From Bacillota bacterium (GTDB lineage: Bacteria > Bacillota_I > Bacilli_A > RF39 > UBA660), in contig SVAK01000008.1 in the NCBI GenBank assembly GCA_015059445.1, positions 1 through 46,986 on the forward strand: a stretch of DNA of 46,986 nt. Reading direction: 5' to 3'. Of this stretch, positions 8,537-11,526 are shown in pieces. Positions within the stretch are counted from its first letter, which is position 1; each line of letters starts with the position of its first letter. Below the pieces are notes generated by a model. The model made no database searches. It saw only the letters and a program-made list of their open reading frames with translations, and was not told where the DNA came from. A program made the position numbers and the translations under genes.

Positions 8537-9280
8537 TTACTTTTTTTCAGCATTTTTTGGGAAATTACGACATAATTTTAATTCTGATTCTAAGTTTTCC
8601 ATAGCTACTTTTGTTCTGGCTACATTTAATAGTTCCTCTAAATTATCGCTATCCATGTGTAAGTCTTCTTGAAGCATTTTTAATAAAATATTTTTTATAG
8701 AAATATCATATCCTTTTAACTCTATTAATAAACTTGTAACATCTTCTGCATTTAAAAATTGTTGTAAAAAATCACATGCCATAGTAAACTCAAGTTTACT
8801 AACAGGATCTAATTCTGCAATTCTTTTTTCTCTTTTATTATCTTTTACTTCAAAAAAGGTTGTACAATTAGTTATTGTATTGTATAACTCATCTAATCTT
8901 TGATCAAAAGAGTTAGATGAAGCATTTCTAACTGATTGATATTTCTTTCGAGCATTTAATGTTATCATTAAACTAATAAATTGTATAAGTAGCGTAAAAT
9001 ATGGAGTCACATACAATAAAGCACAAGATATTAAAGTTACCAAAAGAAATATACTATAACTTTTTTGCATTTTCTTTTTTAAATCTGCAAGATATTTATT
9101 ATACGCATCCATATATTCGCTTAACTCTGTAGCTAAAATTATCATTTTATTTGATAACATCTCACTTTGATATACTGATAATTCAGATGCATCCATAATT
9201 TCACTATATATTTCATAAAATTTAGCTTCTGCTTTAGATATGACTTGTTCTCTTTCATCTAAAATATTTTTCTTTTTCAA
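8537..9280 (-). CDS. Membrane coiled-coil protein of unknown function
   Basis: This 247-residue protein starts with a charged, predicted helical segment (about 1-70). A hydrophobic hairpin follows at about 74-108 (SIFLLVTLISCALLYVTPYF, then TLLIQFISLMITL). The rest is a long charged helical C-terminal domain with no catalytic motif I recognise. The start codon is TTG, supported by a GGGGGG Shine-Dalgarno 7 nt upstream. A promoter overlaps the upstream terminator at 9322-9357. The arrangement, two helices flanked by cytoplasmic helical domains, would suit a scaffold or regulator, but this is only inference. Confidence 0.75.
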   Translation of the reverse strand: MKKKNILDEREQVISKAEAKFYEIYSEIMDASELSVYQSEMLSNKMIILATELSEYMDAYNKYLADLKKKMQKSYSIFLLVTLISCALLYVTPYFTLLIQFISLMITLNARKKYQSVRNASSNSFDQRLDELYNTITNCTTFFEVKDNKREKRIAELDPVSKLEFTMACDFLQQFLNAEDVTSLLIELKGYDISIKNILLKMLQEDLHMDSDNLEELLNVARTKVAMENLESELKLCRNFPKNAEKK

Positions 9281-9308: not shown

Positions 9309-9336
9309 ATTATAACAAATTAAAAAAAATAATCAA
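9309..9336 (-). promoter_or_regulatory. Promoter of the 8537-9280 gene
   Basis: On the reverse strand TTGATT (9331-9336) and TATAAT (9309-9314) are 16 nt apart. The -35 box lies inside the terminator hairpin of the upstream rnfCD transcript, so termination and initiation signals overlap. Confidence 0.55.
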
Positions 9337-9357
9337 TAATAGCTGATTATTTTTTTA
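9322..9357 (-). terminator. Terminator downstream of rnfCD (near-palindromic, bidirectional form)
   Basis: TAATCA and TGATTA, extended by A and T runs, form a stem of about 14 bp around an 8-nt loop, with a T-tract in both directions. Confidence 0.65.
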
Positions 9358-9450: not shown

Positions 9451-10320
9451 TTATTCTAAAATCGAAAGTTTTACTTTCTTTTTGCGCAATTTAATATTTT
9501 GAAATAGAGAAACAATAAATGTAGCAATATAGACACTTATAATATTATTAAAAGTTATTGCTAATACAAAACTAAATATACCTATTAATATGCCGTATAT
9601 AATTTGATTAACATTTTTATAAGGACTATATTCTGGCAAAGAACTGATAAAAATGCTAGCAAATATTAAGTCACTATTTAATAAAATAGAATTATCATTG
9701 GTATTTATAAAATAAATTATAGAAAGAAGTAAATATATTAAATTTATGGTTAGAGGAATATCTTTTTTATAATAAAAATTACTAATTAATATAATATACC
9801 CCAGTAAACTAAATATAATACTAGTAGAAGATATTCCTCCAATACTTCTTCCCATTAATAAATCTAAAAAAGAAAAACTAAAACTATAATTTTCTTCCAA
9901 TATACTTTTAAAAGAAAAATCATTAAATATAAAATTTATTAAAATAATAATTAAATATATAAAACACACTTTATTAAATCTAAAGTATTTTTCTAAAAAT
10001 AAAGCAAGGATATATAATATAATAAAATTAATCAAATAAATTAATAAATTAATATTATTAGGCATTATCATTCCCACTAAAATTACATAAATAAAGTTAT
10101 AATCTATTTTAATTTTTTTATATCTAATTACATCTATGATTATTTTAATAATTACTCCAATAATAACTAAATATAAAGGTTTAAAAATATCTACAAAATT
10201 TATTAACCCCTTTTCATATACTAAATATCCATTTTTAAATATCCCATATAATATAAGCGGAATTAACAAACAAATATTTTGAATAACTAAATTACTTGTC
10301 TTATAATTTTTCATTATCAT
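9451..10320 (-). CDS. rnfD: RnfD-like membrane subunit (degenerate, isolated from a full Rnf operon)
   Basis: This polytopic membrane protein of about 289 residues resembles RnfD/NqrB. The stretch around 150-175 (SFLDLLMGRSIGGISSTS, then a hydrophobic helix) aligns with the conserved LDLFLGxxPGSIGExS region of RnfD. In canonical RnfD a Thr in an SGAT-type motif carries covalent FMN. The equivalent position (about 133-143, FNDFSFKSILEEN) has no SGAT, so the flavin site seems lost. The gene overlaps the 3' end of rnfC. RnfG, RnfE, RnfA and RnfB are absent here. The start is uncertain: GTG 10323, ATG 10320 or ATG 10314. Confidence 0.72.
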   Translation of the reverse strand: MIMKNYKTSNLVIQNICLLIPLILYGIFKNGYLVYEKGLINFVDIFKPLYLVIIGVIIKIIIDVIRYKKIKIDYNFIYVILVGMIMPNNINLLIYLINFIILYILALFLEKYFRFNKVCFIYLIIILINFIFNDFSFKSILEENYSFSFSFLDLLMGRSIGGISSTSIIFSLLGYIILISNFYYKKDIPLTINLIYLLLSIIYFINTNDNSILLNSDLIFASIFISSLPEYSPYKNVNQIIYGILIGIFSFVLAITFNNIISVYIATFIVSLFQNIKLRKKKVKLSILE

Positions 10321-11443
10321 CACTCATTACTATTTCTTTTAATTTAATTTTAGCGGGACATATATATTCACACAATCCGCAGCCAATACAATTTCTATGA
10401 CTAAGTTTTTTTAAATAACATTTTTTAACATTTATATTAAATGGACAAATTTTTTGACAGGCACCACAATTTAGACACTCTGTTACTTCTAAATTTTCTT
10501 TTTTATTAATTACAATAGCGTTAATATCTCTAGTAATTATGATTTCATTTAATTTTTTGACTTTTTGGCCTTTAAGGTAGCCATTAATAAATACTTCATA
10601 ATTATCGCTAGTTATTTTTATATACTCTTTTATAACTTCTTCTAAAGAAACATTTAATCTGACATTTATGATTAAAGATTTTTCTAAAGCATTTCCACTT
10701 ATAGTAATTAAATTCTCTGCAATATCTTTTCCCTTTAAAATTAAATAAATATCATATATTTCATTAGTGGTTAATATTAATGTTTCTTCTGGATTAAAAT
10801 TTAAATATTCACATAAAAATTTTTTATAACTAATTAAATATTTATCTGGTACTAAATTAACCTTAATGTTGGGATAAGTCCCAATAATAGATTTTACATT
10901 TCTAATACTTTTAAAATTAGTGTTTTTAGTTGCTAAAGTAGCACTAAGTAATCCAAAAATACTTATTAAATAATCAATGGTATCCAGCACTTCAACATAA
11001 TGATGGGATAATCTTATAAATTCTTTTAAAGAATATTCTTCTTCATCTATTGAAGATATAACTAAATTATTAATATTTTTTAGTTTTAATATTTTATCAA
11101 TAATATTACTTAATTTATACTCTTCTAAAACATTTAACAAAGTTTCTTTATCATTTATTTTTTTGGGCTTTTTTTTATTTAAAATGTTTTCTTTGAAATC
11201 GTTTTCTATCTCTAATGCTTCCACTATTTTATTATTTATCAAAACTTTCTTACTACCTTTTATGTAACCGGAAATTGAGGCAATATATTCATCAAAATAA
11301 GTGTTTTTATATACATAATCATTTAAATTAAAAGTTTTATTACTAATAATTGGAATATAAATATTAGCAGGATTTTTAAAATCATTTAGATTGTTAACAA
11401 TATTTATCTCATTATTTTCCTTTAATTTTATTAACTTTAACAT
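10301..11443 (-). CDS. rnfC: RnfC-like iron-sulfur protein (degenerate NADH-binding region)
   Basis: About 380 residues. The C-terminus has two complete 4Fe-4S motifs: C323, C326, C329 and C333 (CLNCGACQKICP), then C352, C355, C358 and C362 (CIGCGLCEYICP). The middle has the RnfC-like barrel-sandwich (about 65-85) and SLBB-like segments. However, the glycine-rich GxGGAGFPTxxK loop that binds NADH/FMN in canonical RnfC is missing: the corresponding region reads KLSNIIDKILKLKNI. With rnfD it forms a two-gene operon without the other Rnf subunits. AGGTGG before the ATG at 11443 makes this start likelier than the one at 11461. It may be a partner of a ferredoxin-dependent membrane system; the function is unproven. 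Confidence 0.75.
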   Translation of the reverse strand: MLKLIKLKENNEINIVNNLNDFKNPANIYIPIISNKTFNLNDYVYKNTYFDEYIASISGYIKGSKKVLINNKIVEALEIENDFKENILNKKKPKKINDKETLLNVLEEYKLSNIIDKILKLKNINNLVISSIDEEEYSLKEFIRLSHHYVEVLDTIDYLISIFGLLSATLATKNTNFKSIRNVKSIIGTYPNIKVNLVPDKYLISYKKFLCEYLNFNPEETLILTTNEIYDIYLILKGKDIAENLITISGNALEKSLIINVRLNVSLEEVIKEYIKITSDNYEVFINGYLKGQKVKKLNEIIITRDINAIVINKKENLEVTECLNCGACQKICPFNINVKKCYLKKLSHRNCIGCGLCEYICPAKIKLKEIVMSDDNEKL

Positions 11444-11526
11444 AATCCACCTAAATTCCATCTATATTCTAACAAAATATTAATCTTTAGTAAACTCACT
11501 TAAAGTCAATTTTTAAATTTAATCTG

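Follow-up and report, generated by a model that had tools for sequence, protein, structure and literature searches.

Does an rnfC–rnfD pair that stands without the other rnf genes represent the remains of an Rnf operon, a fragment of one whose other parts went unassembled, or a system in its own right? This question is raised by the minus-strand locus listed in Table 1, which lies in a stretch of DNA of 46,986 nucleotides (the window; contig SVAK01000008.1 of assembly GCA_015059445.1) from a bacterium of the order RF39. A sequence-only reading of the window had proposed that two overlapping genes lost their flavin and NADH sites but kept their iron–sulphur motifs, and that they were repurposed, perhaps as a ferredoxin-linked membrane module, rather than left to decay.

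Table 1 Features of the rnfC–rnfD locus, in window coordinates
Feature	Positions	Strand	Remarks
rnfC-like gene, RnfC fold	10301..11461	minus	386 aa from ATG 11461; 380 aa from the conserved start ATG (M7) at 11443
rnfD-like gene, 10-TM RnfD/NqrB fold	9451..10323	minus	290 aa from GTG 10323; profile start 10314
First cluster motif of the RnfC-like protein, C329xxC332xxC335xxxC339-P340	10442..10477	minus	
Second cluster motif of the RnfC-like protein, C358xxC361xxC364xxxC368-P369	10355..10390	minus	
Shortened RnfD five-helix linker	9865..9894	minus	10 residues between E143 and D154
AT-rich 14-bp hairpin and U run, terminator-like, downstream of rnfD	about 9310..9350	minus	approximate span

Both open reading frames are present and do overlap. 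In hmmscan searches the RnfC-like protein matched TIGR01945 (rnfC) at 7.8e-17 (60.9 bits, where the cut-off is 246), while PF03116 was recovered in the RnfD-like protein at 2.5e-15; the scores of the two proteins against the NCBIfam rnfC and rnfD families fall far under the family cut-offs. To identify the folds, we compared AlphaFold models, built from alignments of congeners (pLDDT 90.7 for the RnfC-like and 87.9 for the RnfD-like protein), with solved structures. The RnfC model matched solved RnfC with Z scores of 36.5 (8rbm_C), 36.2 (9eri_C) and 35.7 (7zc6_C) over 375 aligned residues, far above its match to NuoF of complex I (Z about 18), whereas the RnfD model matched solved RnfD (9eri_D) with a Z score of 26.3 over 262 aligned residues, compared with 13.7 for Rh/Amt channels and 10.9 for urea transporters. 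The matches to RnfC and RnfD lie well above those to NuoF and Rh/Amt, and the gene identities are secure: by fold and by profile, the pair consists of homologues of RnfC and RnfD.

As had been read from the sequence, both CxxCxxCxxxCP motifs are present in the RnfC-like protein, and all eight cluster cysteines are kept in 93 of 93 RnfC proteins of the same, short type in which we read the ligand motifs. (C348, considered as a ninth conserved cysteine, was dismissed, being limited to the window's genus.) The reported absence of the glycine loop for FMN and NADH from RnfC, and of an SGAT-type FMN threonine from RnfD, also held up; profile alignment with solved RnfC and RnfD did not recover the missing motifs, and both losses proved to be deletions, not substitutions. 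In RnfC about 10 residues are gone: the stretch from E91 to D139, where GxGGxGFP would lie, has a median length of 46 residues among the 93 short-type proteins versus 56–57.5. In RnfD about 23 residues are gone: the linker that separates E143 from D154 measures exactly 10 residues in 91 of 91 short-type proteins, compared with 28–35 residues in canonical RnfD of the same family, where the longer linker includes the ATPL threonine to which FMN is covalently bound. In addition, ECEP is replaced by D/E-D/E-x-Y in short-type proteins.

The riboflavin site has fared unevenly. Its asparagine (N123 of Acetobacterium woodii, N117 in the window by motif mapping) is retained in 81 of 91 short RnfD proteins; in the window's genus the position of its aspartate (A. 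woodii D249, window L229) is occupied by Leu or Ile, whereas 25 of the 60 short RnfD proteins outside that genus have Asp. The leucine suggests that the membrane acceptor may be gone in the window's genus. Across genera RnfD is less conserved than the clusters of RnfC; a set of charged or polar residues (K30-N31-G32, E143, D154 and K186-K187) is conserved.

An ordinary Rnf complex, with its remaining subunits in unassembled parts of the genome, would account for the isolated pair, and the window's genome is a draft (1.02 Mb, 95.5% complete, 18 contigs). The sequence-only reading had taken rnfGEAB to be missing, and searches of that genome agree: its single PF03116 protein is the RnfD-like protein of the window, and it gave no match to RnfA/E (PF02508), RnfB, the RnfG-type FMN_bind domain (PF04205) or ApbE. 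Nor did we detect RnfA/E or the RnfB FeS domain (PF04060) in any of 38 congeneric genomes, or RnfA/E in any of the 96 genomes with short RnfD described below, although the same searches did recover the RnfA/E and RnfB families in control genomes. Incomplete assembly is thus, in our estimation, a negligible prospect.

Indeed, the two-gene form is not peculiar to the window's genome. RnfC is present in 32 of 36 relatives within the genus, and in an order-level sample (288 genomes, 102 genera) short RnfD occurs in 96 genomes (22 genera by count), while another RnfD, mostly the longer form fused to RnfG, occurs in 33. The long and short forms never share a genome (hypergeometric p 6e-7, uncorrected for kinship). 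RnfA/E is found in 25 of the 288 genomes, all of which carry long RnfD and none short. ApbE follows the long form (25 of 33 genomes, versus 1 of 96 with the short form); it also occurs in 23 of the 159 genomes without any RnfD match (G108, G169, G211, G275 and others), some of them in frames of 690–700 aa. Among 395 class-wide genomes, at the sensitivity used, the short pair was not detected outside the order; the other class-wide matches are long-frame RnfD, and the short form is confined to the window's family. One genome of the survey (G010) holds two diverged rnfCD copies on different contigs (L007/L053 and L060), 57% and 51% identical to the window's RnfC, and may represent mixed strains.

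These data bear directly on whether the pair is a decaying remnant of an Rnf operon. That host genomes are reduced (about 1 Mb) and have lost most Rnf subunits fits decay; against it stand the open frames maintained in 22 genera, the invariant cysteines, the exact length of the RnfD linker and the selection acting on both genes. In close pairs dN/dS is well below 1 (0.06–0.25 for rnfC and 0.06–0.28 for rnfD), indicating purifying selection, and rnfC is followed directly by rnfD on one strand, nearly always overlapping it, in 91 of 91 loci in which both were read. We therefore regard decay as very improbable. The breadth of genera, the cysteines, the low dN/dS and a single origin strongly support the earlier proposal that the short pair is a conserved, repurposed RnfC–RnfD core.

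The single origin is indicated by a concatenated tree, in which the short pairs, including those of the window's genus, are recovered as a single group (SH-aLRT 100) with a long stem (0.91). This group lies next to the canonical Rnf of the same family and is separate from class-level Rnf. The tree came from a quick search and the long stem leaves the exact attachment of the group unsure; on this tree, the short pair arose once, probably beside the family's canonical Rnf. Genomes that have RnfC and RnfD (or RnfD fused to RnfG) and either lack RnfA/E or hold only a diverged RnfA-like gene sit at several places outside the short group, with five changes on the tree, at least three of them forced by strongly supported branches. 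From this scatter, retention of RnfC and RnfD after loss of RnfA/E seems to have occurred more than once.

Several loci of the same family illustrate other combinations. The family's canonical Rnf (L105 7203-8621; L126-L139) mostly shows two peculiarities: a fusion of RnfD with an FMN-binding domain of the RnfG type, and an RnfB reduced to an FeS domain of 85–95 residues that lacks its ferredoxin domains. Four loci (L140, L142, L143 and L144, from genomes G064, G253, G270 and G202, which fall in at least two places on the tree) combine RnfC bearing the glycine loop with an RnfD–RnfG fusion and ApbE in genomes without RnfA/E; such an arrangement is possibly a unidirectional flavin relay from NADH to the outside. 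Three more (L128, L141 and L145, from G069, G106 and G136) are intermediates in which RnfC has the loop, the flavin-threonine site of RnfD is altered, and an RnfG domain and ApbE are absent; G069 retains a diverged RnfA-like gene.

We also asked whether the neighbourhood of the pair holds a conserved partner, and the survey of loci revealed no constant partner gene, only housekeeping synteny or variable surface proteins. The pair had been described as lying between a terminator and a divergent gspE; gspE is indeed upstream, whereas the terminator amounts to an AT-rich hairpin with a U run (z −2.3), and a consensus scan was negative. As an operon partner gspE was rejected, since it is common only within the window's genus, and the family-wide neighbours uvrC (upstream) and dnaG–rpoD (downstream) were likewise set aside as housekeeping synteny. 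Between rnfD and dnaG, a surface protein of the thioester (TED)/SpaA kind is encountered repeatedly, even with different downstream genes (for example L034 5631-7220, L107 5777-7621 and L112 5509-8863). In some cases it comes with an LPxTG-like end and a sortase gene, and its TQxxIW motif was seen at 20 of 88 loci; because it is present in a minority only, this protein too was rejected. The window itself has an ORF of 247 aa after rnfD (8537-9280, minus strand) with no confident Pfam family, and weak homologues of it (22–29% identity) hold the same position in some congeners.

What might the conserved pair do? In solved Rnf complexes, electrons pass from the riboflavin of RnfD to cluster 2 and then cluster 1 of RnfC, and on to FMN and NAD+, and RnfD inserts arms into RnfC (PMC9588780, PMC11889175). 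The short pair lacks the terminal step (FMN and NAD) as well as the outer-side entry (the FMN of RnfD, and RnfG); it retains clusters 1 and 2 together with the inner half of RnfD. The reading we favour, with a probability of roughly 40%, is that the pair is a vertically conserved output arm of Rnf, in which two [4Fe-4S] clusters relay electrons between a soluble one-electron carrier, most likely ferredoxin, and RnfD. RnfC would dock on RnfD as in Rnf, and removal of the loop would turn the two-electron NADH site into an exposed docking face for one-electron transfer. Electrons would then run from the carrier, most likely ferredoxin reduced by PFOR, through cluster 1 and cluster 2 and end on an acceptor bound at, or next to, the former riboflavin pocket, in the cytoplasmic half of RnfD. 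The persistence of all eight cysteines where the other cofactor sites are gone argues that selection maintains two clusters rather than a single one, which is what a relay would predict.

As for the soluble carrier, both PFOR and an [FeFe] hydrogenase are encoded by the host, which shows that it has a ferredoxin economy. Co-occurrence adds little: PFOR is present in 262 of the 288 genomes of the order and, being near-universal, carries no information on a ferredoxin link, and [FeFe] hydrogenase shows no clear enrichment (34 of 96 genomes with short RnfD versus 51 of 192 others). The lack of a constant partner gene at the surveyed loci and, in the window's genus, the leucine in place of the riboflavin aspartate likewise count against the relay. 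Thus, of the repurposed, ferredoxin-linked module first suggested, the repurposing stands and the ferredoxin link is kept as a presumption. Rnf-type ion pumping by the short pair would be excluded if RnfA/E, which it lacks, acts as the redox ion gate, as argued for A. woodii. More tentatively, the pair could constitute a new, family-wide and flavin-free two-subunit membrane oxidoreductase with ferredoxin at the old NADH site, two [4Fe-4S] clusters and, within RnfD, either an acceptor other than a flavin or a gate; if so, fermentative gut Bacilli would gain a ferredoxin sink or a redox-driven transporter without any flavin.

The fold of RnfD nevertheless invites a different interpretation, in which RnfD would again transport a small solute or cation, gated by RnfC, whose clusters would sense the ferredoxin pool. 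The alignment of the RnfD model with Rh/Amt channels and urea transporters, the lost flavin sites and the conserved charged and polar residues are consistent with such a channel, and a review relates RnfD/NqrB to ammonium and urea transporters (PMC12174285). However, likeness to channels is common to canonical RnfD, and the invariance of both clusters is unexpected for a sensor, which would need a single one. Moreover, F221 and F225, which would correspond by motif to the NqrB gate residues F338/F342, are conserved in 75 and 68, respectively, of the 91 RnfD proteins, so that the pore constriction seems to be retained. Given the ammonium/urea channel fold, a redox-gated channel is the main rival to the relay, and we consider it unlikely. 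We are also doubtful that RnfD serves only as an anchor for an iron–sulphur platform from which RnfC passes electrons to a partner encoded elsewhere, for example a reductive enzyme. The weaker conservation of RnfD and its lost flavin sites would fit an anchor, and NqrA, an RnfC homologue that has no cofactor and no known direct function, is a precedent (PMC12174285); but RnfD has near-invariant residues of its own and a dN/dS like that of RnfC, and its ten conserved helices would be needless for a bare anchor.

We found no report of a system of RnfC and RnfD only in the open-access literature searched, and a study of Tenericutes that includes RF39 mentions Rnf for other groups only (PMC7301438). 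A lineage with only RnfC and RnfD, no recognised covalent-flavin or NADH sites and all eight cysteines suggests that the output arm may function on its own. Within one family there is a series (full Rnf; RnfC and RnfD–RnfG without RnfA/E; RnfC with the loop and RnfD; the short pair) in which the roles of RnfC and RnfD apart from the pump can be followed, and annotating the genes of the short pair as an Rnf complex would wrongly credit their hosts with ion-pumping respiration.

Rnf is an ion pump with flavins at most of its membrane steps. With the Rnf complex (RnfABCDGE, the NAD+:ferredoxin oxidoreductase of A. woodii, C. tetanomorphum and A. vinelandii), the pair shares the RnfC and RnfD folds, the gene order C–D and the two [4Fe-4S] motifs; unlike Rnf, it has no RnfA, E, G or B, no FMN/NADH loop in RnfC and no FMN threonine in RnfD, and the riboflavin aspartate is lost in the window's genus. 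PduS, the corrin reductase of the pdu microcompartment, is an RnfC-type protein that acts outside Rnf; it is a soluble microcompartment flavoprotein and is not known to have an RnfD partner. In Na+-NQR, NqrA is an RnfC homologue without FMN and NqrB a homologue of RnfD; however, NqrA has lost the clusters, which are the one thing that the window's RnfC keeps, and NqrC, D, E and F have no counterparts here. Among reduced systems already described, the two-subunit NQR/RNF-like complex (Meheust 2021, PMC8238504; PMC11334425) comes nearest; it is likewise a two-component system with an RnfD/NqrB-like subunit that lacks the flavinylated threonine. In those complexes the partner is an NqrC/RnfG-like flavoprotein, accompanied by a C-terminal NAD-binding domain (PF00175) and ApbE, whereas the window's RnfD-like protein is paired with RnfC in a genome that gave no match to FMN_bind or ApbE; PF03116 is the sole family found on this RnfD-like protein, which carries no PF00175 domain.
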